The position numbers and the translations under genes were made by a program. Shown in pieces: positions 9,045 to 32,277 of a stretch of 64,000 nt of DNA. The stretch is from the NCBI RefSeq assembly GCF_003382365.1, contig NZ_QTSU01000003.1, positions 558,001 through 622,000 of the forward strand, in the 5' to 3' direction. The notes beneath the pieces were generated by a model. It was not told the DNA's origin. It made no database searches and was given only the letters and a program-made list of their open reading frames with translations. How positions within the stretch are numbered: position 1 is the stretch's first letter; each line of letters starts with the position of its first letter. This DNA comes from Lysobacter silvisoli. Lineage in GTDB: Bacteria > Pseudomonadota > Gammaproteobacteria > Xanthomonadales > Xanthomonadaceae.

Positions 9045-9698
9045 ATGACCCCCTCTGCCGACGCCCTGTTCCCGTTCTCGCTCAAGGTCATGGCCGGCGG
9101 CGCGCTGGAAGGCGCGCTCAACCGCGCCCTGGCCCTGGACCCCGATACCCAACAGGCCCTGCGCACGCTGGACGGGCGCCGTCTGGCCCTGCACCTGGCC
9201 GCGCCGCCGCTGGCGCTGCAGATACGGGTGGACGGCGAGCAGCTGCGGGTGGGGCCGGTGGAGCCCGGCGAGGAGCCGGACCTGTCGGTGCGCAGCACCC
9301 TGGCCGGGCTGGTCTCGCAGCTCCCGTTCCTGCGCAACGAGGACGCGCCGCCGGTAGGCAAGCTGCGCATCGAGGGCGACGCCGACCTGGCCCGGCGCCT
9401 GCAACGCCTGGCCGAGCGCTTCGATCCCGATTGGCAGCGGCCCTTCACCGGCGTGTTCGGCGACATCCTCGGCGTGCAGATCGCCAACGGCCTGGCCGGC
9501 GGCCTGCGTCACGCACGCGGTGCGGCCGGCGCCTTTGCCCAGAACGCGGCCGAATTCGTCACCGAGGAATCGCGCGACGTGGTCGCGCGAGACGAGCTCA
9601 ACGCCTTCCACGACGACGTGGATGCCTTGCGCGACGACGTCGAGCGCGCGGCCGCGCGGGTGGCGCGCCTGCGCGCGCGCGCCGGGAGCGGCGCATGA
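9045..9698 (+). CDS. ubiJ: UbiJ, ubiquinone biosynthesis accessory factor (SCP2 domain)
   Basis: 217 residues. Residues ~10-110 form an SCP2-like lipid-binding domain (start [20 protein letters not shown], then [19 protein letters not shown]). The C-terminal ~50 residues are a charged helix ([20 protein letters not shown]) typical of UbiJ. UbiJ binds polyprenyl intermediates in the soluble Ubi complex. The stop overlaps the ubiB start in an ATGA junction (9695-9698), the conserved ubiJ-ubiB arrangement, although ubiE is not next door. Confidence 0.9.
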
Positions 9699-11359
9699 AG
9701 TCGGCGCTGCGCGCCTGGCGCATCGGCCGGGTCCTGCTGCGTTATCGCTTGGACGACCTGCTCGACGACACCCCCGCCGAGCGCTGGCTGCGCCTGGCGC
9801 GGCCGTTCGTGCCGCGCGCTTCGGCCGAGATCGCCGCGCTGCCGCGCGGCGCGCGCTTGCGTCTGGCGCTGCAGGAACTGGGCCCGATCTTCGTCAAGTT
9901 CGGCCAGATCCTGTCCACCCGCCGCGACCTGGTGCCGCCGGACATCGCGGTGGAGCTGGCGTTGCTGCAGGACCGGGTGGCGCCGTTCGACGGCCAGGCC
10001 GCGCGCGCCATCGTCGAGACCGCGCTGGAGCGCAGCATCGCCGAGGCGTTCGAGACCTTCGACACCACGCCGCTGGCCTCGGCCTCGATCGCCCAGGTGC
10101 ACGCGGCCACCCTGGCCGGCGGCCGCGAGGTCGTGGTCAAGGTGCTGCGCCCGGACATCGAGCGCAAGATCGCCGGCGACATCGCCCTGCTCAAGGCCAT
10201 CGCCAGCGTGGTCGACCGCGCCCATCCCAGCGCCGACAAGATCCGCCCGCGCGAGATCGTGGCCGAGATCGAGAGCACCCTGGCCGCCGAGCTGGACCTG
10301 CAGCGCGAGGGCGCCAACGCCAGCGTGCTGCGCCGCTTCTGGAAGGACAGCGAAGACCTGTACGTGCCCGAAGTGATCTGGTCGCACACCGCCGAGCGCG
10401 CGCTGACCCTGGAGCGCGTGTACGGCATCCCGTCCGACGACATCGCCGCGCTGGACGCGGCCGGTATCGACCGCGCCGCGCTCTCGGCCAAGGGCGTGCG
10501 GGTGTTCTACACCCAGGTGTTCCGCGACAACTTCTTCCACGCCGACGCCCACGCCGGCAACATCTGGGTCGACAGCGATCCGGCGCGCAAGTCCAACCCG
10601 CGCTTCATCGCCCTGGACTTCGGCATCATGGGCCAGCTCTCCGACGAGGATCAGTACTACCTCGCCGAGAACTTCATGGCGATCTTCAACCGCGACTACC
10701 GCCGCATCGCCGAGCTGCACGTGCAGGCCGGCTGGATGCCAGCGCACATCCGCATCGACGAGCTGGAAGCGGCCACGCGTGCGGTCTGCGAGCCGTATTT
10801 CACCCGCCCGCTCAGCGAGATCTCGCTGGCCGAGGTGCTGGCCAAGCTGTTCCGCACCGCGCAGCGCTACGAGCTGACCCTGCAGCCGCAGCTGATCCTG
10901 CTGCAGAAGACCCTGCTCAACATCGAAGGCGTGGGCCGTTTGCTGGACCCCAAGCTGGACATCTGGGCGGTGGCGCGGCCGGTGCTGCAGCGCATCCTGG
11001 TGGAGCGCTACAGCCCGCAGCGCCTGGCCAGCGAGTTCCGCAAGCGCCTGCCGGAGCTGGTGACCCACGCGCCGGAAATGCCGCGGCTGCTGCATGCCTG
11101 GCTGAGCCAGCAGGTGTCGGGCGGGCACGAGCTGAAGATGCGCTCCAACGATCTGGCCGAGCTCACGCGAACGGTCAAGGACGCGCAGCGGCGCACGGTC
11201 GCGGCGATTCTGGGCACGGGGCTGCTGATCGTGGCGGCGGTGCTGTACGGTCTGGAAGCCGGAGGCCCGCGCTTCTGGTCGGTCCCGGCTTCGTCGTGGA
11301 TCGCCGGCATCGGCGGCATCTGGGCGCTCCTGGCCGCCTGGCCCCGCCGCAGCAGCTAA
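9695..11359 (+). CDS. ubiB: UbiB, ubiquinone biosynthesis atypical kinase/ATPase
   Basis: 554 residues, the usual size. The ABC1/ADCK signature VKFGQ (K68-Q71 as KxGQ), the Ala-rich loop [22 protein letters not shown] and LDFGIMGQL are all present. Two hydrophobic helices at the C-terminus ([18 protein letters not shown] and a following one) anchor it in the inner membrane. UbiB is an ATPase-like accessory protein of coenzyme Q synthesis. It is translationally coupled to ubiJ and followed by a long repeat block. Confidence 0.94.
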
Positions 11360-20978: not shown

Positions 20979-20998
20979 TGAAAAAACTTGATTGTCAA
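20968..20998 (-). promoter_or_regulatory. Candidate sigma-70 promoter of the LysR gene
   Basis: On the minus strand, -35 TTGACA (20993-20998) is followed after 17-19 bases by CATATC/TATCAT (20968-20975). The -35 is consensus, the -10 is weak. Confidence 0.4.
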
Positions 20999-21077
20999 AT
21001 ACAAGACGGCGCCGCATGGTCTAGACCCAAGGGGCCGGCTCATCCGCAGCGGCCCCAAGCTTTCAGGAGTCGCAACG

Positions 21078-22709
<1,632 letters not shown>

Positions 22710-24359: not shown

Positions 24360-25409
24360 ATGAATCGCGATGGCGCTGCGCCGACCATGAAGGGCGGCCA
24401 GTTCAATACGGATCCGATCGCGGCGCCTAACGAAGCGGCGACGGCCGCGCTTAGCCAGGCGGAATTCGAACTGTTCGCCGAGCTCGGTCGCCCGCGCGCG
24501 GTCGAAGCCGGGCAGGTGCTGTTCCGCCGCGGCGAACTGGGCACCACCATGTTCATCGTCGCCAGCGGCGCGATCGACCTGGACTTCGGCGACGACCTGG
24601 TCACCAAGCGCCTGGGCCCGCGCGAGTTCTTCGGCGAACTGGGCCTGCTGATCGGCGACCACGCCCGCAGCGCCGACGCCATCGTCGCCGGCGCCGGCCT
24701 GCTGATCGAACTGCGCCACGAGGAGTTCCAGCGCCTGGTCGACCGCAATCCGGGCCTGGTCTGCCATTTCCTGCGCCGCGCGATCATGCGTGTGGTGCTC
24801 AACGAGCAAGGCCTGATCCGGCGCCTGCGCCGGCGCAACCAGGACCTGGAGGCCGCGCTCGACAGCCTGTACGCCACCACCCACCAGCTCAACCAGACCG
24901 AAGAGCTGATCCGCACCGACGAGCTCACCGGCCTGTACAACCGCCGCGGCCTGACCCTGCGCCTGCAGGAAAGCCGCGCGATCGGCATGCCGGCCTCGCT
25001 GGGCCTGGTGCTGGTGGACTGCGACCGCTTCAAGCAGGTCAACGACGACCACGGCCACCTGGCCGGCGACCGCGTGCTGCAGGCCGTGGCCAGCATCCTG
25101 CGCTCGGTGGCCGGGCCCGAGGACGTGGCCTGCCGCCTGGGCGGCGACGAGTTCTGCCTGCTGGTGGCCTCCAGCAACGCCGGCGACGTGATGCGCTTCG
25201 CCGAGTTCATCGTCGCCACCGCGCAGAACCTGATGCTGATGCCGCAATCGCCGCCGGCCATGTGCCCGGTCAGCGTGGGCGCCTGCATGGTCGACCCGCG
25301 TGCGGACTGGAACGACTGGTATGCGCGCGCCGACGAGGCGCTGTACCAGGCCAAACGCAAGGGCGGCAACCGCGTCCACTGGCAGGACGCGGCCCTGGAA
25401 CCGGTCTGA
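24360..25409 (+). CDS. Cyclic-nucleotide-binding GGDEF protein (diguanylate cyclase)
   Basis: 349 residues. Residues ~30-150 are a CRP-like cNMP-binding domain (FRRGELGTTMFIVASGAIDL, then REFFGELGLL). A helical linker leads to a GGDEF domain with an intact LGGDEFCLL, so it should make cyclic di-GMP. The inhibitory RxxD site is lost: the four residues at that place are GPED. The next gene, 34 bases away, has a class III nucleotide cyclase-like domain. From memory, the Xanthomonas campestris pair XC_0249/XC_0250 has this architecture and forms a cGMP to cyclic-di-GMP relay; this gene resembles XC_0249. An in-frame ATG at 24387 is an alternative start. Confidence 0.88.
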   Translation: MNRDGAAPTMKGGQFNTDPIAAPNEAATAALSQAEFELFAELGRPRAVEAGQVLFRRGELGTTMFIVASGAIDLDFGDDLVTKRLGPREFFGELGLLIGDHARSADAIVAGAGLLIELRHEEFQRLVDRNPGLVCHFLRRAIMRVVLNEQGLIRRLRRRNQDLEAALDSLYATTHQLNQTEELIRTDELTGLYNRRGLTLRLQESRAIGMPASLGLVLVDCDRFKQVNDDHGHLAGDRVLQAVASILRSVAGPEDVACRLGGDEFCLLVASSNAGDVMRFAEFIVATAQNLMLMPQSPPAMCPVSVGACMVDPRADWNDWYARADEALYQAKRKGGNRVHWQDAALEPV

Positions 25410-25443
25410 GCCGGCGCGCGAAGAACAAGGACGACAGCTCGCG

Positions 25444-28080
25444 ATGAACGATGCACACCGCCCCCATCCGGAAGCGCCGCAGCTGCGCACGCTGTTGCTG
25501 ACGGACCTGTGCGACTCCACCACCCTGGTCGAGCGCATCGGCGACGCCGCGGCGGCCGAGCTGTTCCGCGAACACGACCGCCTGGTGCTGCGCCTGCAGC
25601 AGCAATGGCGCGGCCGCCTGATCGACCGTTCCGACGGCCTGCTGCTGTTGTTCGAACGCCCGATCGACGGCCTGGGTTTCGCCCTGGATTACGAACGCGG
25701 CCTGCGTGAGCTGGGCCGCGAGCGCAAGCAGACCCTGCTGGCGCGCGCCGGCCTGCACGTGGGCGAAGTGCTGACCTGGCGCAACAGCGACGAAGCCGTG
25801 CAGGTGGGCGCCAAGCCGCTGGAAGTCGAAGGCCTGGCCAAGCCCATGGCCGGCCGGCTGATGGCGATGGCGCGCCCCGGCCAGATCCTGCTCTCGGCCG
25901 TGGCCGAGCCGCTGGCGCACCGCGCCGCGCGCGAGCTGGGCGAGCGTGGCCAGCAATTGCTGTGGAAGTCCTACGGCCGCTGGCGCTTCAAGGGTGTGCC
26001 CGACCCGCAGGAAATCTACGAAGTCGGCGAGCCCGGCATCGCGCCGCTGCGTGCGCCGCCGAACTCGCCCAAGGCCTGGCGCGACGTGCCGCTGTGGCGG
26101 CGCCCGGCGGCGCTGGCGGCCGAGGTCGCGGTGCTGGCGGTGGTGGGCGTGGGCGTGTGGTTCGTGACCAAGCCGCAGCCGGCCATCGCCTTCAACGAGC
26201 GCGACTGGGTGGTGGTGGGCGACCTGCGCAACCTCACCGGCCAGAGCGTGCTCGACGATTCGCTGGAACAGGCTTTCCGCATCAGCCTGGAGCAGTCGCG
26301 CTACGTCAACGTGCTGTCCGACCTGAAGGCGCGCGACACCCTGGCGCGCATGCAGCGCAAGCCCGACACCTTCCTGGACCGCGCGGTGGCCTCGGAAATC
26401 GCGCTGCGCGACGGCGCGCGCGCGGTGATCCTGCCGACCGTGGCCGAAGTGGGCGGGCGCGTGCGCGTCAGCGCCGAGGTCATCGACCCGCACACCCAGA
26501 CCACGGTCTACGCCGAATCCGTCGACGGCGTGGGCGCCGGCTCGGCGCTGTCGTCCATCGACCAGGTCACCGCCAGCCTGCGCAACAAGCTGGGCGAGGC
26601 GCTGAAGTCGATCGACAACGACTCCGCGCCGCTGCCGCAGGTGACCACCAAGAACCTGGACGCGTTGCGCGCCTATGCGCTGGGCACCAAGGCCTACGCC
26701 AAGCGCCAGTTCCCCGAGGCGCTGCAGTACTTCCAGCGCGCGCTCGAACTGGACCCGAATTTCGCCCTGGCCCATATGGGCGTGATGCGCGTGTACGTGA
26801 GCAACGCCGACAACGCCGCCGCGCGCCCCTCGCTGCTCAAGGCGGTGGCGCTGCGCGACCACCTGCCGCCGCGCGACGCGTTGTACCTGGACGCGTGGGC
26901 CGCCGAATTCGGTCCGCAGCCTTCGCGCCGTGCCGCGCCGAAGTGGAAGCTGCTGGCCGGCCTGTACCCGGACTACTACGCCGGCCAGAGCCGCCTGGCC
27001 TGGTTCGAGTTCACCTCCGGCCGCTACGACGCCGCCCTGCGCGGCGCGCAGGCGTTCTCGGCGCCGCAGAACGCGCTGCGCGACATCGCCATGGAGCTCA
27101 AGGGCCGCGTCTACCTGGCCCAGCAGAAGCCGGCGCAGGCGCTGGAAAGTTTCAAACAGGCCGAAGTCGCCGGTCAGTACTCGCCCACCCGCCGCCACGC
27201 CGCGGCCCTGGCCACCCTGCAGCGTTATCCCGAGGCCGAGAAAGTGCTCGCCGCGCTGCCGGCCAACGACCGCAGCCTGGGCGCGCTGGTCAACGAATTC
27301 GAGCGCATCTCCATCCCGCTGGATCAAGGGCGTTTGGGCGAGGCCCAGCGCGTGGCCGATCGCGCCTCGGCCGCCGCGCGCGAGGCCAACCCGCTGCTGC
27401 GCCACCCGTTCCAGATCGCCGACTACTGGACCGACCTGCTGCGCGATCCGGCGTCGGTGCCGGCGGCCAAGATCGGCGCCCTGGCCGATGCGATCCTGGC
27501 CGATGCCGCCGCGCCTTCGGCCGATGCCGACCGCGACGATCTGCTGGTGATGGCGCTGGCCGCGGTGCGCCTGGGCCAGCGCGCCGGCGACGTCCGCATC
27601 GGCGAGCGTCTGCTGCCCAAGCTCGGCGAACTGGTGCAGCAGTCCGGCCATATCGGCGCGGGCAAGCTGCTGACCGTGGTCAAGGCCGACCAACTGCGCC
27701 TGTCGGGCCAGCCGACCCAGGCCGCGACGCTGCTCGCGCGCGAGGTCGACGGCAGCGAACCCTTCCAATTGCACGTCGCCTTGCGCGACGCGCTGCGCGA
27801 TGCCGGCAAGGCGGACGAAGCCTTGCAACAGGACCGCTGGCTGGCCGAACACCGCGGCCTGGCCTACATCGAACCGCTGGGCGGTCAGGCCCTGCAGGCC
27901 ATGAGCGTGGCCGACGCCAGCCTGGCGCGGCTGAGCGCGGCCGAACGCCTGGCTGCGCTCGGGCGCCCGGACGAAGCGCGACGGGAAGCCGAGGCCTTCC
28001 GTCGCGCCTGGGCGGCCGAACCGCTGCCGCCTTACTTACTGCGCAGGCTGGATGCGACGCTGCCCGCTTCGAAGCAGTGA
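25444..28080 (+). CDS. Class III cyclase-like / TM / TolB-like / TPR protein ('peptide modification system cyclase' type)
   Basis: 878 residues. Residues ~14-195 are a class III nucleotide cyclase domain with both metal Asp residues, D21 (LLLTDLCDST) and D64 (RSDGLLLLFE), and R138, but Ile60 at the purine-specifying position and Pro134 where the transition-state Asn is expected. One membrane helix (AEVAVLAVVGVGVWFV, ~225-240) follows, then a TolB/FlgO-like segment and TPR repeats (LGTKAYAKRQFPEALQYFQR) to the end. From memory, such proteins are recorded as cyclases of a putative peptide modification system next to NHLP-type peptides. The XC_0250 guanylate cyclase is the best functional comparison. 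Its last 49 bases overlap the precursor gene on the other strand. Confidence 0.82.
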   Translation: MNDAHRPHPEAPQLRTLLLTDLCDSTTLVERIGDAAAAELFREHDRLVLRLQQQWRGRLIDRSDGLLLLFERPIDGLGFALDYERGLRELGRERKQTLLARAGLHVGEVLTWRNSDEAVQVGAKPLEVEGLAKPMAGRLMAMARPGQILLSAVAEPLAHRAARELGERGQQLLWKSYGRWRFKGVPDPQEIYEVGEPGIAPLRAPPNSPKAWRDVPLWRRPAALAAEVAVLAVVGVGVWFVTKPQPAIAFNERDWVVVGDLRNLTGQSVLDDSLEQAFRISLEQSRYVNVLSDLKARDTLARMQRKPDTFLDRAVASEIALRDGARAVILPTVAEVGGRVRVSAEVIDPHTQTTVYAESVDGVGAGSALSSIDQVTASLRNKLGEALKSIDNDSAPLPQVTTKNLDALRAYALGTKAYAKRQFPEALQYFQRALELDPNFALAHMGVMRVYVSNADNAAARPSLLKAVALRDHLPPRDALYLDAWAAEFGPQPSRRAAPKWKLLAGLYPDYYAGQSRLAWFEFTSGRYDAALRGAQAFSAPQNALRDIAMELKGRVYLAQQKPAQALESFKQAEVAGQYSPTRRHAAALATLQRYPEAEKVLAALPANDRSLGALVNEFERISIPLDQGRLGEAQRVADRASAAAREANPLLRHPFQIADYWTDLLRDPASVPAAKIGALADAILADAAAPSADADRDDLLVMALAAVRLGQRAGDVRIGERLLPKLGELVQQSGHIGAGKLLTVVKADQLRLSGQPTQAATLLAREVDGSEPFQLHVALRDALRDAGKADEALQQDRWLAEHRGLAYIEPLGGQALQAMSVADASLARLSAAERLAALGRPDEARREAEAFRRAWAAEPLPPYLLRRLDATLPASKQ

Positions 28081-28358
28081 ACGACCGTGTGCGTGTCGGT
28101 CGAGGTCAGGTAGGTCCGCAGTTCGCTGAGCGAGGCCTGGATCTCCTCCTTCGGCGCGATGTTGGTCACCATCATGCAGCTGGTGTCCGACAGCGCGGCC
28201 TTGGTCTGGGCCGGTGCCAGGCCCAATCCGCCCAATGCAGCGGCCGGATCCTGAACGAACAGGTCGCGGAAATGGTCGTCGTTGCCGAGCTTGTGCAGCA
28301 GCTTGTCGGCGACCTTCGGATCCAGGGGCGGATGCCCCTTGGCGTTGTCGTTGCCCAT
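28032..28358 (-). CDS. NHLP-type RiPP precursor peptide (putative modified peptide)
   Basis: 108 residues. The leader PLDPKVADKLLHKLGNDD (11-28) is followed by FRDLFVQDPAAALGGLGL (30-47), the nitrile-hydratase-like leader signature (F..L..DP..AL...G). The remaining ~60 residues are rich in Ser and Thr and hold two Cys, C61 and C95. Leader plus neighbours suggest a ribosomally made, modified peptide. The ATG at 28358 is preceded on its strand by GGGGGAG. The gene is convergent with, and overlaps, the cyclase-like gene and is divergent from the SagB-like gene. No protease/ABC exporter is beside it, so export is unresolved. Confidence 0.82.
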   Translation of the reverse strand: MGNDNAKGHPPLDPKVADKLLHKLGNDDHFRDLFVQDPAAALGGLGLAPAQTKAALSDTSCMMVTNIAPKEEIQASLSELRTYLTSTDTHTVVHCFEAGSVASSLRSK

Positions 28359-28403
28359 CGATACTCCCCCTAGCAGAGCCGGTTGTGGCCCCGATCGGCT
28401 GGA

Positions 28404-28432
28404 AATCTATCCTTGTCCCATTGGCGGGACAA
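28404..28432 (-). promoter_or_regulatory. Candidate promoter of the precursor peptide gene
   Basis: Minus-strand -35 TTGTCC (28427-28432), 17-base spacer, -10 TAGATT (28404-28409). The -35 is half of the palindrome at 28413-28432. Confidence 0.45.
28413..28432. promoter_or_regulatory. Perfect palindrome TTGTCCC-N6-GGGACAA, operator-like
   Basis: Arms at 28413-28419 and 28426-28432 are perfect complements, placed between the two divergent starts and covering the -35 boxes of both candidate promoters. It fits a binding site for a dimeric regulator controlling peptide and dehydrogenase together. Confidence 0.55.
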
Positions 28433-28448
28433 CCTCAAAACCATAAAA
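28421..28448 (+). promoter_or_regulatory. Candidate promoter of the SagB-like gene
   Basis: -35 TTGGCG (28421-28426) and -10 ATAAAA (28443-28448) with a 16-base spacer, 22 bases before the ATG. Weak match. Confidence 0.3.
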
Positions 28449-28470
28449 AACTGCTGCACGGGAGTGGAAT

Positions 28471-29643
28471 ATGCAGGTGAGGCGATGTGCGGTGGTGTAC
28501 TTGGAGCCGCGCGAGGAAATCAGCTTCGATCTGCCCTCCTTGCTGCAAGGCGGCGCCGGCCTGCGCCGGCAGCGGCGGTGGCTGGCGTTGGCGCCTCATT
28601 TGGATGGCGAAATCGAGATCGACGCCGACGAGCGCGAACTGCTGGGCCGGCTCAGCCCGGGGCAGTGGAGCCCGCTCGAATCCCTGAGCGACGCGCCCGC
28701 GGCGGCCCTGCGGCGCCTGCTCGACACCGGCCTGCTGATCGGCGACGCCGAGAGCGACGCCGCCCACCGCGAGCGCGACCAGGCCCTGCGCGACGGCCAC
28801 TGGTGGCCGCCGGCCGCGCTCGCGCACCGGCTGGCGCGCTGGCAGGGCGTGGACGGCGTGGCCGACATGGAGGCCAAGGACCTGACCACGGTGTCCGGCC
28901 TGCGCGACAAGCTGGGCGCACCGCCGCCGCCGGTGCGCGAGCGCGTGCCGGCCGCGCAGCGCATCGCCCTGCCCGAGATCGAGCCCGCCGACCTCGACGC
29001 CCTGCTCGCGCGCCGCGCCACCTGCCGCAACTTCGACCGCGAACGCGCGCTGCCCTACCGGCTGTTCGCGCAGATGCTGCAGCGTACCTTCGCCGCCCAG
29101 GCGCAGCTGCGCGTGGACGAGGATGCGGTGTTCCTGAAGAAGCACTCGCCCTCGGCCGGCGGCCTGCACCCCACCGAGGCCTATTTGATCGTGCAGCGGG
29201 TGGAGGGCCTGGCCCCGGGCCTGTACCACTACCACCCGATCGAGCACGCGCTGGAACCGCTGCCGCCGCCGCCGGGCGAACTGGCCGATTTCGTCCTGCG
29301 CGCCCTGGCCGGCCAGCACTGGTTCGCCGACGCTCCGGCGCTGGCGGTGCTGGCGCCGCGTTACGCGCGCTGCTTCTGGAAGTACCGCCACCACGCCAAG
29401 GCCTACCGCGCCCTGGTCCTGGACAGCGGCCACCTGTCGCAGACCCTGTACCTGAGCGCCACCGACCTGGGCCTGGGCGCCTTCGTCACCTGCGCCGTCA
29501 ACGAGGTCGACCTGGAGCGGGCCTTCGGCCTGGACCCGCTGAGCGAAGGCCCACTGGCGGTGTGCGGGTTCGGCTGGCGCGCGCAGCAACAGCGCACCGC
29601 CGAGTTCGACCCGGCCGGCGAGGTCTGGGCGCCGGCGCGCTGA
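28471..29643 (+). CDS. SagB-like flavin dehydrogenase (putative peptide maturation dehydrogenase)
   Basis: 390 residues. The first ~150 residues are an ill-defined, mostly helical domain. The C-terminal half is a nitroreductase-fold flavin domain of the SagB/ThcOx type: RRATCRNFD, then the signature SPSAGGLHPTEAYLI, LYHYHPIEHALE and TDLGLGAFVTCAVNE. SagB enzymes oxidise azoline rings or similar groups in RiPPs with FMN. No YcaO cyclodehydratase is next door, so the substrate bond may be different. From memory, a family of putative peptide maturation dehydrogenases pairs with this type of precursor. GGGAG lies just before the ATG; it is divergent from the precursor gene. Confidence 0.85.
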   Translation: MQVRRCAVVYLEPREEISFDLPSLLQGGAGLRRQRRWLALAPHLDGEIEIDADERELLGRLSPGQWSPLESLSDAPAAALRRLLDTGLLIGDAESDAAHRERDQALRDGHWWPPAALAHRLARWQGVDGVADMEAKDLTTVSGLRDKLGAPPPPVRERVPAAQRIALPEIEPADLDALLARRATCRNFDRERALPYRLFAQMLQRTFAAQAQLRVDEDAVFLKKHSPSAGGLHPTEAYLIVQRVEGLAPGLYHYHPIEHALEPLPPPPGELADFVLRALAGQHWFADAPALAVLAPRYARCFWKYRHHAKAYRALVLDSGHLSQTLYLSATDLGLGAFVTCAVNEVDLERAFGLDPLSEGPLAVCGFGWRAQQQRTAEFDPAGEVWAPAR

Positions 29644-29810: not shown

Positions 29811-29881
29811 AGGCGGGTTGAAGGTCACACTTAGGCGGCGTAACTTCCATGCTCCGCAATCGCGATCGAGGAGTTGCCCCC

Positions 29882-30334
29882 ATGAAGTTGCGTGTTTGGG
29901 CCCTGAGCCTGTTGCTGGTGGCCCCGTTGTCCTACGCCTCGGTCGACCGCGGCGTATTGCAGTTCGAATCGATTCGTTCGCAGCAGTCCGAAATCCGTGC
30001 CGCGGTCAAGGCCGCCAACGGGCGCTACAAGGAAATGCCGCAGAACACCCGCGGCGAGTTGTTGGCCAAGCAGGACCAGCTGTTCCATCTGATGGACGGC
30101 AAGCAGTCCACCCAGGACCTCAACGAAGACCAGAAGACCGAGGTATTCAACACCTTGGAGTGGATCGAAGCGGCGATCAACAGCGCCGACGACGAACGCA
30201 TGGTCTGCGAGCGCCGCCCGGTGCTGGGCAGCAACCGCAAGGAGCGCGTGTGCCGCACCGCCGGCCAGATCCGCGCCGAGCGCGAATCCGCGCGCGAACG
30301 CATCGAAAGCGGCGAAGTCCGCAGCAGCCAGTAA
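29882..30334 (+). CDS. Small secreted protein, C-x14-C family, paralog 1
   Basis: 150 residues: signal peptide MKLRVWALSLLLVAPLSYA, then a helical charged domain with QQSEIRAAVKAANGRYKEM, LMDGKQSTQDL and FNTLEWIEAAIN. Two Cys spaced C-x14-C lie in VCERRPVLGSNRKERVC. I do not recognise a named family. It is very close to paralog 3 and more distant from 2 and 4. ATG 29882 has GAGGAG 8 bases upstream; the earlier start at 29849 lacks one. Likely periplasmic, with a possible disulfide. Confidence 0.75.
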   Translation: MKLRVWALSLLLVAPLSYASVDRGVLQFESIRSQQSEIRAAVKAANGRYKEMPQNTRGELLAKQDQLFHLMDGKQSTQDLNEDQKTEVFNTLEWIEAAINSADDERMVCERRPVLGSNRKERVCRTAGQIRAERESARERIESGEVRSSQ

Positions 30335-30402
30335 ACGGCGCCGCCGCGTACGGGCGCCGTCGCGCGCACCGTACGCGGCGCGTCAAAACCAGGGGAAACG
30401 TC

Positions 30403-30879
30403 ATGAAGCGAAGCATCGTGCTGTTCGCCGTACTGTCGTGCGCCGCGTTCGCGGCCGTGGCCAACGTCGGTCGCCTAGGCCAGATCCTGCAAGAGCAGCG
30501 CGAGATCCGCGCCGAGACCGAACGTCCCACCGGCGCCTACGCGCGCTTCGACCGCAACCAGATCGACAAGATGCAGCGCGCGCAGGACCGCATCTTCCGA
30601 CTGCTCGATGGCGTCGACCAGGTCGAACAACTGGACCGCGAAAAGCAGGTCGAGCTGTTCAACTCGCTGGAGGAGGTGAAGGCGGTGCTGGCGGCCAACG
30701 AGAACGACCGCCAGATCTGCCGCCGCGAACGCAAGACCGGCACCACCCTGCGCGAAGTGCGCTGCGCCACCGTCGGCGAACGCACCAAGCTCACCAACGA
30801 AGCGCGCGATTGGAAGGGCGATTCCGGCGTGTGCGCGCCCGAGTCGGGTAGCACCTCCTGCGGATCGGCCCGGCCCTGA
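30403..30879 (+). CDS. Small secreted protein, C-x14-C family, paralog 2
   Basis: 158 residues: signal peptide MKRSIVLFAVLSCAAFAAVA, then QILQEQREIRAETERPTGAY, LLDGVDQVEQL and FNSLEEVKAVLAANE, the same plan as paralog 1. The conserved Cys pair is in CRRERKTGTTLREVRC, and a second Cys pair sits in the C-terminal tail (GVCAPESGSTSCG). AGGGGA lies before the ATG. No known function. Confidence 0.72.
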   Translation: MKRSIVLFAVLSCAAFAAVANVGRLGQILQEQREIRAETERPTGAYARFDRNQIDKMQRAQDRIFRLLDGVDQVEQLDREKQVELFNSLEEVKAVLAANENDRQICRRERKTGTTLREVRCATVGERTKLTNEARDWKGDSGVCAPESGSTSCGSARP

Positions 30880-30904
30880 GCCGCCGCACCCGCATCGATT
30901 CCCT

Positions 30905-30991
30905 CCTTTGTTGAGGGGGGCCAAGGGGGCTGTTGCTGTTGTTGTGGCTTCAAGCCAAGAGCAAATCCCCCTCAGTCCCCCTCAACAAAGG
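30905..30991. repeat. Inverted repeat of the CCTTTGTTGAGGGGG module
   Basis: CCTTTGTTGAGGGGG (30905-30919) is mirrored perfectly at 30977-30991, with TTGCTGTTGTTG-rich DNA between. It is the same module found at the edges of the long repeats at 16.1, 19.55 and 55.6 kb, here without the hairpin part, between paralogs 2 and 3. Confidence 0.8.
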
Positions 30992-31123
30992 GGGAGGCGA
31001 AACGCCGGAGCGCCAGCCTTCGGCACCTTTTGGGTGCCCACCCGCCACATAGGCCGAAAGCTCAGTCGACAGCCGCCCCGACGGCCACGTATGGTCGCGG
31101 TCCCCATCCACGGACCGAAGTCG

Positions 31124-31585
31124 ATGAAGAAGTTTGTACTGGCCGCCTTGATCCTGGGCGCGCTGACCGCGCCGCAGGCGTTCGCGGCCGACTACGCCGC
31201 GCAGGAAGCCCAGGCCATCCGCAACCAGCAGGCCGAAATCCGCGCCGGCGTGGAAGCGCGCAGCGGCCGCTACAAGGACATGTCCGGCGAAACCCGCGCC
31301 ACCTTGCTGACCAAGCAGAGCGAAGTGCTGCGCACCCTGGAGGGCAAGCAGTCCACCGCCGAGCTGACCGAACAGCAGAAGATCGACGTGTTCAACTCGC
31401 TGGAGTGGATCGAAGCGGCGATCAACAACGCCGACGACGAGCGCCTGGTCTGCGAGCGCCGCGCGGTGCTGGGCAGCAACCGCAAAGAGCGTGTGTGCCG
31501 CACCGCCAGCCAGATGCGCGCAGAGCGCGAGCTGGCACGCCGGCAGATCGAGCAGCAGAAGGGCGGCGACTTCGGCCGCGATTGA
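31124..31585 (+). CDS. Small secreted protein, C-x14-C family, paralog 3
   Basis: 153 residues: signal peptide MKKFVLAALILGALTAPQAF-AA, then QQAEIRAGVEARSGRYKDM, LEGKQSTAEL, FNSLEWIEAAINNADDERLV and the Cys pair in CERRAVLGSNRKERVC. It is the closest relative of paralog 1, differing by few residues in the second half, so the duplication is recent or under conversion. ATG 31124 opens the signal peptide; an upstream in-frame ATG at 31091 would add residues before it. A strong terminator follows. Confidence 0.73.
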   Translation: MKKFVLAALILGALTAPQAFAADYAAQEAQAIRNQQAEIRAGVEARSGRYKDMSGETRATLLTKQSEVLRTLEGKQSTAELTEQQKIDVFNSLEWIEAAINNADDERLVCERRAVLGSNRKERVCRTASQMRAERELARRQIEQQKGGDFGRD

Positions 31586-31606
31586 CGCAGCGCAGGTCGT
31601 GCGTGC

Positions 31607-31638
31607 GAAGGGCGGCGCAGTGCCGCCCTTCTTCGTTT
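31607..31638 (+). terminator. Rho-independent terminator after paralog 3
   Basis: Perfect 10-base stem GAAGGGCGGC / GCCGCCCTTC (31607-31616, 31622-31631), loop GCAGT, followed by TTCGTTT. Confidence 0.75.
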
Positions 31639-31785
31639 GGCGCGCATGCCGCGGCCACGGCGGTCCGCCGTCGCGGTGTTTCGGACGGACGGCGCTCCCG
31701 GCCGTTGTAGCCGCCAAGGCAGGGCGCGTAGTGTCTGGGTCGAGCCGTAGCCCCGATCCCGGTCCGCCTACGAGGAGCCATCGCC

Positions 31786-32277
31786 ATGAAGCGTTTGCTG
31801 CCGTGTCTGCTTTTGCTGTGGACGCTGGGCCCGGCATGGGCCGACGAACCGGTGCAAGCCGGTGGCGCGCAAGACGACGGCCGCGACCGCCTGCAAGTGG
31901 TGCTGGAACAGCAGCGCGCGATCCGGGCCGACCTGGACGACGGCGGCATCGACGGCCTGAGCCCGCGCCAGGCCAGCGCGATCCGCAAGGCGCAGAAGGA
32001 GGTCTTCGCCGCCGCCGAAGGCAAGCAGCGACTGGACCAGCTGTCGATGGACGACAAGATCCGCCTGGACAACGCCCTGGAGCGCATCCAGGCCGAGCTC
32101 GGCGACAGCCGTACGGCGCGCGACGGCCAGGATGTGTGCTGGCGCGAGCGCGTCAGCGGCACCAGCATGAAGAAGACCCGCTGCGGCACCGAAGCCCAGC
32201 GCCGCGAAGCGCGCGAAGGCGCGCGCGACTATCTGGAGCGCCCGCGTACCTGCGGGCGCAATTGCGGCGGCTTGTAG
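31786..32277 (+). CDS. Small secreted protein, C-x14-C family, paralog 4
   Basis: 163 residues: signal peptide MKRLLPCLLLLWTLGPAWA, then LQVVLEQQRAIRADLDDGG, AAEGKQRLDQL and NALERIQAEL. The Cys pair is in CWRERVSGTSMKKTRC and a second pair is in the tail (RTCGRNCGGL), as in paralog 2. It is the most diverged copy. It lies beyond the terminator after paralog 3 and so may have its own promoter. No known function. Confidence 0.7.
   Translation: MKRLLPCLLLLWTLGPAWADEPVQAGGAQDDGRDRLQVVLEQQRAIRADLDDGGIDGLSPRQASAIRKAQKEVFAAAEGKQRLDQLSMDDKIRLDNALERIQAELGDSRTARDGQDVCWRERVSGTSMKKTRCGTEAQRREAREGARDYLERPRTCGRNCGGL

Follow-up and report, generated by a model that had tools for sequence, protein, structure and literature searches.

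Why should a bacterium keep the genes of a peptide precursor and a peptide-maturing enzyme beside those of a cyclic GMP signalling pair? The question is raised by a 64,000-nucleotide stretch of the Lysobacter silvisoli genome (contig NZ_QTSU01000003.1, positions 558,001 to 622,000; hereafter the window, with positions counted from its first letter), in which four genes lie side by side. They encode a cyclic nucleoside monophosphate (cNMP)-binding GGDEF protein of the XC_0249 type (24360..25409, forward strand, 349 residues; Pfam GGDEF 130.8 bits, cNMP_binding 61.6 bits), a membrane nucleotidyl cyclase with a TPR domain, of the XC_0250 type (25444..28080, forward strand, 878 residues; TIGR04510, 1170 bits, cut-off 400), an NHLP-related precursor of the ribosomally synthesised and post-translationally modified peptide (RiPP) type (28032..28358, reverse strand, 108 residues; TIGR04509, 90.8 bits, cut-off 34) and a SagB-like dehydrogenase of the flavin mononucleotide (FMN) type (28471..29643, forward strand, 390 residues; TIGR04511, 589 bits, cut-off 240). 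Coordinates and profile scores confirm all four genes of the original prediction, which was made from the letters of the window, and the tight spacing that it had described: 34 nucleotides separate the GGDEF and cyclase genes, the cyclase and peptide genes are convergent and overlap by 49 nucleotides, and the peptide and dehydrogenase genes are divergent, with 112 nucleotides between them. The peptide-modification set of family annotators to which it referred is indeed represented, the three window proteins exceeding the cut-offs of TIGR04509, TIGR04510 and TIGR04511; its NHLP-type precursor is better called NHLP-related, the generic NHLP leader model TIGR03793 giving 18.1 bits against a cut-off of 50.9. 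We propose, with slightly more belief than doubt, that the locus is a polymorphic peptide-signalling cassette, in which the matured tail of the precursor would be the ligand of a TPR guanylyl cyclase acting via cyclic GMP.

The genes travel together. In a survey of 100 related genomes from 67 genus groups, scored at NCBIfam's own cut-offs, the precursor was found in 55 genomes and 34 genus groups, the cyclase in 54 of these 55 (that of genome G030 is broken up) and the dehydrogenase in 53, G026 and G042 showing only partial matches below cut-off; all three were below cut-off in the remaining 45 genomes, where weaker partial-profile matches are present. The precursor is not a chance frame, because it exceeds its cut-off in 34 of the 67 genus groups, always with the cyclase and the dehydrogenase. 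The original prediction had named peptide and dehydrogenase without the cyclase/GGDEF pair in most genomes as speaking against it; in none of the 100 relatives did peptide or dehydrogenase occur above cut-off without the cyclase, the broken one of G030 apart. Conservation of the whole set, by which it could be checked, held for cyclase, precursor and dehydrogenase, together in 55 of the 100, and less completely for the cNMP-GGDEF protein, a relative of which was present in 52 of the 55 cassette genomes versus 1 of the 45 others (E <= 1e-40, up to 20 candidates scored per genome) and was not found by this search in G051, G054 and G058. The GGDEF gene adjoins 48 of 56 cyclase loci (G030 included) and is encoded away from the cyclase in G040, G071 and G080; beside the eight cyclases without a GGDEF neighbour no other output protein was recognised by eye, no domain search having been made. 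The cyclase domain of G058 is degenerate (row L146), and this genome keeps five precursors and the dehydrogenase with no GGDEF protein found. Genomes G051 and G054 have two cassettes, with a peptide and a dehydrogenase beside each of two cyclases, one of these cyclases scoring 394.8 bits, just short of the cut-off of 400, and one G051 peptide being detected by a custom profile only. Among the best 80 of 430 named relatives (Lysobacter, Xanthomonas, Pseudoxanthomonas, Stenotrophomonas, Luteimonas, Thermomonas and a few other genera, the nearest to the window locus being Lysobacter) all four genes were present in 79 loci and missing as a full set only from a 3.6-kb contig; three of the 79 (L183, L200 and L219) have no more than a short dehydrogenase match. 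Outside the order of the window, where the dehydrogenase alone served as search probe, the yield was nil, since the 8 of 398 genomes of the phylum with a dehydrogenase above cut-off all belong to that order. The fetched sets of 58 and 80 loci overlap and comprise 137 cyclases, 119 of them distinct; 134 of the 137 cyclase genes have a convergent precursor gene in the fetched stretch, at most 300 nucleotides away in 130 cases and overlapping in 79. That cyclase, precursor and dehydrogenase form one inherited unit in Xanthomonas-like bacteria is thus strongly supported.

Some single loci depart from the common form. In Xanthomonas vasicola NCPPB 2417 (L183) the dehydrogenase is a short frame (approximately 9462-10151; 54 bits versus at least 449 for uncut copies) beside frames for peptide, cyclase and GGDEF protein. 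Locus L142 (G040) has nine precursors above cut-off, several dehydrogenases and one full and one fragment cyclase, and many of its tails have a common 'VP' or 'IP' pattern despite differing leaders. A record titled Bacillus subtilis SK7B5 (L187) contains a full cassette of this order and is probably mislabelled or contaminated.

How the unit varies between close relatives suggests what it may be for. In eight close species pairs DNA flanks that are 86-96% identical enclose an island of 52-59% identity, which holds the TPR half of the cyclase and the peptide sequence and, in six of the eight, much or all of the dehydrogenase gene; all eight segmented islands take in the TPR domain. Xanthomonas dyei and Xanthomonas sp. 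Leaf148, for example, are 96% identical over 2.9 kb upstream, 52% within the island and 95% downstream, the edges falling at cyclase residue ~224 and just beyond the dehydrogenase gene. The right edge is likewise just beyond the dehydrogenase gene in L185/L159 (left edge at residue 267), L217/L224 (275), L223/L178 (225) and L208/L190, whose left edge, unlike the others, lies inside the cyclase domain (residue ~89); the L170/L163 island runs from residue 354 to inside the dehydrogenase gene. The island starts at the transmembrane helix in two of the three segmented Xanthomonas pairs (residues 224 and 225) and at ~267 in the third. Two minimal islands delimit the exchanged part most closely: that of L193/L206 extends from residue ~365 to the C-terminal ~60 peptide residues (94% identity outside, 58% inside) and that of L166/L164, segmented on a shorter range since the longer one had picked a downstream indel, from residue ~337 to the C-terminal ~73 peptide residues (96% outside, 59% inside). 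Both reach from the last part of the middle domain through the TPR domain into the C-terminal part of the peptide, while the start of the leader is identical between the rows and the dehydrogenase region, outside the island, is 76-98% identical, its proteins differing by 0.05 and 0.01 in the two pairs. No island was seen in the pairs L218/L196, L214/L171 and L204/L182 (the last uneven, 66-96%), whose members belong to the same TPR class (classes were set at a TPR difference of 0.35, giving 14 with several members and 36 single loci); in L159/L175 identity stays low downstream, and the L191 stretch ends too early to judge. The window itself shows a drop of identity at ~26.6-29.0 kb against five Lysobacter loci of other classes and none against two of its own class. 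Peptide and presumed sensing half of the cyclase are repeatedly exchanged together between close relatives. The suggestion that the peptide acts as a signal, or is itself sensed, gains genetic support from this common swapping with the TPR part, the candidate sensor.

The same polymorphism appears when loci are compared in bulk. We used 82 of the 93 non-redundant loci in which all four genes are single-copy; eleven were left out because aceA is missing from the stretch fetched for them, and the set does not include the window. Among the large parts of the locus the TPR domain diverges most (mean difference 0.66), and in the 211 pairs whose backbone (aceA, GGDEF protein and cyclase domain) differs by less than 8% its differences are bimodal: counted in steps of 0.1 they number 24, 19, 35, 0, 12, 42, 57 and 22, with none between 0.3 and 0.4. 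They exceed 0.45 in 127 of these 211 pairs, 19 of which share no locus. Where TPR domains of the same class differ by less than 0.3, no pair has a tail difference above 0.5. Within Xanthomonas, loci of TPR classes 0 and 2 are intermingled on the backbone tree, where X. dyei (class 0) and Leaf148 (class 2) are sisters (support 98/95); constraining either class to one clade on this tree was rejected by the approximately unbiased (AU) test (class 2, p 0.0002; class 0, p 2e-6), the classes having been set from TPR distances but the tree having been seen before the test. Conversely, the tree of TPR domain plus dehydrogenase rejects the joining of X. dyei and Leaf148 (p 3e-59). Pherotype-like polymorphism of the locus is what is new here: modifier, peptide and receptor candidates are adjacent, the sensor is polymorphic together with the peptide and the output is conserved, as seen between species with one genome each.

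Covariation points to the TPR domain as the partner of the tail. Given aceA and GGDEF distance, the rank partial correlation between tail and TPR differences was 0.46, as compared with 0.06 for the middle domain and 0.00 for the cyclase domain of the same protein, and with 0.35 and 0.31 for the N-terminal and catalytic parts of the dehydrogenase. The latter two values drop to 0.07-0.08 once the TPR domain is taken out, and the tail-TPR correlation is still 0.36 with cyclase domain and dehydrogenase additionally removed. Leader distance behaves otherwise, correlating at 0.40 and 0.38 with the two dehydrogenase parts versus 0.28 with the TPR domain. Values as high as those observed arose in 0 of 200 row permutations for TPR domain and dehydrogenase, in 17 for the middle domain and in 93 for the cyclase domain, counts that are not clean probabilities as the permuted rows are related. 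Along the cyclase, sliding windows (given aceA) correlate with the tail at 0.07-0.17 up to residue ~390, at 0.23 for residues 372-432 and at 0.33-0.49 from residue 412; corresponding windows of the GGDEF protein give 0.11-0.29 and those of the dehydrogenase 0.24-0.48. Rate-matched columns give 0.06-0.16 for the cyclase domain, 0.07-0.14 for the middle domain, 0.21-0.45 for the TPR domain, 0.09-0.32 for the GGDEF protein and 0.23-0.49 for the dehydrogenase, so that both approaches agree within the cyclase. In addition, loci with several precursors, which served solely for comparing paralogs within a locus, give an independent check and, like the minimal islands, a partial test against physical linkage alone: in 13 such loci with leaders at least 0.25 apart the mean tail difference was 0.61, versus 0.79 expected from other loci with an equal leader difference, and tails were closer than the leader difference predicts in 11 of the 13 (Wilcoxon p 0.003, an optimistic value given that some loci are related, L136 and L137 being near relatives). 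These figures are averages per locus, since 43 of the 58 paralog pairs come from one locus.

The architecture of the cyclase would fit a receptor. In its AlphaFold2 model (mean predicted local distance difference test score, pLDDT, 88; predicted template modelling score, pTM, 0.66) a cyclase domain is followed by one helix, then by an alpha/beta domain and finally by a long helical repeat, and in a Foldseek search the Rv1900c and Ma1120 cyclases came top, with large helical-repeat proteins following the class III cyclases. Model, fold search and conservation together delimit a putatively cytosolic class III cyclase domain (25480..25989, forward strand, residues ~13-182), a conserved part of the locus. 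It is followed by a predicted single transmembrane helix (26104..26169, residues 221-242), a predicted periplasmic alpha/beta domain with a weak FlgO-like match below cut-off (26203..26589, residues 254-382; the middle domain) and the candidate TPR sensor domain (26650..28059, residues ~403-872), which co-varies with the peptide tail. A hydrophobic stretch scoring at least 1.6 is present in 134 of 138 aligned rows and the N side of the helix is the more positive in 137 of 138; with one helix and this charge bias the TPR part is therefore predicted to lie outside the inner membrane, in the periplasm. D21 and D64 occur in all 136 rows with letters there, R138 in 135 and Pro134 in 134 of the 136; we take D21 and D64 to be the metal-binding Asp pair and R138 the transition-state Arg of class III cyclases, with Pro134 standing where such enzymes would presumably have Asn.

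This pair resembles one already known from Xanthomonas campestris, in which, as described in PMC3770947, XC_0250 synthesises cyclic GMP, XC_0249 is under cyclic GMP control and cyclase mutants are reduced in virulence and biofilm. The experimentally tested residues D41, D71, L73, A150, L157 and A161 of XC_0250 fall on D34, D64, L66, A143, L150 and A154 of the window protein with a constant offset of 7, and the cyclic GMP-binding F73, E90, H98, N145 and E146 of XC_0249 on F76, E93, H101, N148 and E149 with an offset of 3 (PMC3770947), these correspondences being offsets from the published numbers rather than a sequence alignment. N148/E149 (24801-24806, forward strand) thus match published contacts; E93, H101 and E149 are invariant in 129 GGDEF rows, and position 148 carries Asn 117 times, Ser 11 times and Gly once. 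On these residues and the adjacency of the genes the window pair appears to be of the XC_0250/XC_0249 type, and the idea that cyclase output tunes the GGDEF protein may be carried over by analogy with the published pair. For structural comparison the relative found in PDB was 5h5o, the paper's own structure being 4KG1. The published assignment for XC_0250 (D41, which is D34 here, L157 and A161; PMC3770947) looks shifted with respect to D21, D64 and R138.

The other two genes would supply the ligand. In the precursor the leader, which is NHLP-related, and a helix with the motif LASKEE are conserved, and the C-terminal ~10-25 residues form a variable tail (in the window 28035..28103, reverse strand, residues 86-108), the candidate core or ligand. 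The dehydrogenase model (pLDDT 95) has McbC, ThcOx and BmdC as its closest folds, and its N-terminal domain resembles the ThcOx/BmdC clamp, as judged from whole-length alignments in which residues before 164 were barely tested. A Lys-Tyr pair (K304-Y305; 29380-29385, forward strand), invariant in 44 rows, has a role in azoline-oxidase-type FMN dehydrogenases according to the portion of PMC11055893 consulted; with its modelled nitroreductase fold the window enzyme would belong to that type. Azole chemistry, of the thiazole/oxazole-modified microcin (TOMM) kind, was considered and dropped, the cassette having no YcaO gene and mostly Cys-free tails; it is unlikely to be carried out by this cassette, and the two YcaO matches in the window's own genome lie on another contig. 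AlbAB is also among the fold matches of the model, and alpha-beta dehydrogenation, as proposed for AlbAB in the same portion of PMC11055893, would by analogy fit tails without conserved Cys.

Taken together, these elements suggest the following scheme. The conserved leader of the TIGR04509 precursor would be held on the N-terminal domain of the TIGR04511 SagB/McbC-type FMN dehydrogenase, which would oxidise the short variable C-terminal tail; the matured tail would reach the periplasm and be recognised there by the TPR domain of the single-pass membrane guanylyl cyclase (TIGR04510). Binding would set the level of cytosolic cyclic GMP and so activate the cNMP-GGDEF protein, probably raising cyclic di-GMP. 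Sensor domain and peptide core must match in such a scheme, and would for that reason be passed on and replaced in step; since the two genes converge, their matching ends are neighbours, and a single recombination event could swap both. Co-occurrence, co-swapping and its boundaries are observed and active-site-type residues are conserved in the sequences, the domain layout comes from models, and modification, export, binding and direction of response are what we infer. It is tempting to speculate further that membrane guanylyl cyclases serve Gram-negative bacteria as receptors for peptide hormones, with sensor and peptide core forming a swappable module across the order of Xanthomonas and Lysobacter: a typed, modified peptide would bind the periplasmic TPR domain and act on biofilm behaviour through cyclic GMP and then cyclic di-GMP; this wider picture seems to us plausible, with doubt somewhat outweighing belief.

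Several observations weigh against the signalling cassette as we propose it. In the minimal swaps the tails differ by 0.44 and 0.23, versus 0.47 and 0.49 for the TPR domains, and their last tail residues are rather alike; a change of sensor with little change of tail thus occurs. Tails less than 0.25 apart were found in 6 of 3242 pairs of different class, and in 2 of the 13 multi-precursor loci (L133 and L174) tails differ more than expected. The correlation of the tail is not confined to the TPR domain, since the dehydrogenase reaches 0.31-0.35 (0.24-0.48 in windows); faster regions tend towards higher correlation, slow GGDEF columns (up to 0.32) are level with slow TPR columns (0.21-0.29), and distances between related rows are not independent. 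As TPR and peptide genes are neighbours, block recombination alone could explain part of the correlation. As to the chemistry, YcaO is absent from the cassette and unmatched in 41 of the 55 cassette genomes, and there is no Cys in the last 25 residues of 115 of 164 precursors, nor in the last 75 of 14. Finally, the precursor has neither a signal peptide nor a double-glycine site as judged by eye, and the cassette no recognised exporter, the C39 peptidase, the usual NHLP export route, being the only type searched. It was unmatched in 21 of the 55 cassette genomes in the search of the 100 relatives, for which reason C39 export was dropped as a universal partner.

The gap in export would suit a peptide that stays inside the cell or the periplasm, as a private ligand or subunit tuning its own cyclase, so that the polymorphism would reflect co-evolution of subunits and not communication. 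The missing exporter, the 21 cassette genomes without a C39 match, the lack of a visible signal peptide and the long conserved leader all agree with it; co-evolution of subunits, however, is usually gradual, yet TPR distances are bimodal and the islands sharp-edged, and the recurrent arrival of distant alleles points to selection in favour of difference. We regard this explanation as unlikely but deserving of real weight. Selection for difference could also arise from antagonism or kin recognition, if the peptide were a bacteriocin-like toxin, the TPR cyclase its matched sensor or immunity partner, and rare types enjoyed an advantage that drives the swaps. Bacteriocin loci do include NHLP-related leaders and SagB-like enzymes, peptide and partner are polymorphic here, and precursors can be multiplied (nine above cut-off in G040). 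The partner is nevertheless linked to an enzyme with D21 and D64 retained throughout, neither an exporter nor a distinct immunity gene could be recognised within the cassette, and the published phenotypes of cyclase mutants are reduced virulence and biofilm (PMC3770947, abstract), all of which makes a toxin improbable.

Alternatively, phages, predators or toxins that attack the periplasmic TPR domain might force it to diversify and so drive the swaps, with peptide and dehydrogenase merely hitch-hiking. The TPR domain is after all the most divergent large part and the one component within every segmented island; hitch-hiking, on the other hand, leaves unexplained why, in 11 of 13 loci, diverged precursor paralogs have tails more similar than expected, and the three genes strictly co-occur, so we consider it quite improbable. 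Nor is it at all probable, in our estimation a slim chance, that only an inherited gene order beside aceBA is at work, the peptide genes having no functional link to the cyclic GMP genes. Many loci do adjoin aceA (40 of the 58 fetched and 72 of the 80 named loci), a place passed down by descent; but the set is intact also where the fetched stretch contains no aceA, and likewise in further families of the order, all three genes are jointly absent above cut-off in 45 of 45 genomes, and none of the 100 has peptide and dehydrogenase but no cyclase. The polymorphic signalling cassette therefore remains the reading that we prefer.

In the window aceA (isocitrate lyase) lies upstream of the four genes and is preceded by a frame (20988-22709) that we take to be a malate synthase from its resemblance. 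Between the divergent peptide and dehydrogenase genes there is a perfect 7-bp inverted repeat, TTGTCCC-n6-GGGACAA (28413..28432), a candidate operator or hairpin, whose core has 1 match in the window versus 0.02 expected. It is retained in the near relatives L097, L098 and L102 and also in L151-L153, absent from L099, and found in no other fetched locus. On the 3' side of the dehydrogenase (29849-32277, forward strand) about four small genes encode related products with signal-peptide-like N-termini and common motifs such as 'FNSLEWIEAAIN' and 'GSNRKERVCRTA'; the two scanned (29849 and 31786) had no NCBIfam match and the product of 29849 no Pfam match either. This region is 53-85% identical in DNA to seven other Lysobacter loci.

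How does the cassette compare with systems already described? The annotators' names for TIGR04509 (NHLP-related RiPP peptide), TIGR04510 (putative peptide modification system cyclase) and TIGR04511 (putative peptide maturation dehydrogenase) already link the three genes; they place the cyclase within peptide modification, while its modelled nucleotidyl cyclase fold makes a receptor more likely than a modifying enzyme. In open-licence PubMed Central full texts the family names retrieved only an unrelated use of one phrase (PMC8939145, in the part seen), and among the matches listed there no title or abstract describes a link of peptide or dehydrogenase to the cyclic GMP pair. The class III cyclase domain with TPR and the adjacent cNMP-GGDEF protein are shared with XC_0250/XC_0249 (PMC3770947), and the main text of that paper makes no mention of peptide, dehydrogenase, polymorphi-, nitroreductase, periplasm, XC_0251 or XC_0248; in the sections consulted neither an input signal nor allele exchange is named. 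Cyclic GMP is a published messenger in Xanthomonas (PMC3770947), and the genetics of the locus points to the neighbouring peptide as its input signal. If this is true, the cassette would be a Gram-negative counterpart of pherotype systems and would give a bacterial guanylyl cyclase a peptide ligand, and there would be a reason why a RiPP-type precursor and a dehydrogenase, in mostly YcaO-free genomes, persist in 34 of the 67 genus groups surveyed. The dehydrogenase differs from McbC, ThcOx and BmdC in having no YcaO cyclodehydratase in its locus and none matched in 41 of the 55 cassette genomes. Peptide-reading TPR domains have a precedent in the RRNPP receptors (Rap, PlcR and others), which recognise short, often hydrophobic peptides; those receptors are cytosolic and their peptides re-imported, whereas the TPR domain here is fused to a cyclase and predicted, from one helix and its charge bias, to lie outside the inner membrane. 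The closest parallel is ComQXPA of Bacillus, which, in the section of PMC4008528 consulted, combines an adjacent modifying enzyme, precursor and membrane receptor into discrete communication types, the receptor having a variable extracytoplasmic and a conserved cytosolic part. On the evidence of the sequences our locus repeats this pattern: the output, predicted to be cytosolic, is conserved, the candidate sensor, predicted to be extracytoplasmic, is variable, and the peptide varies in match with it (compare PMC4008528, same section). It is not ComQXPA proper, ComP and ComA being replaced by a class III cyclase and a cNMP-GGDEF protein: a histidine kinase receptor with its response regulator and an isoprenyl transferase as modifier stand on the Bacillus side, and on this side a putative receptor of the guanylyl cyclase type with a cNMP-GGDEF target and a dehydrogenase of the FMN type.

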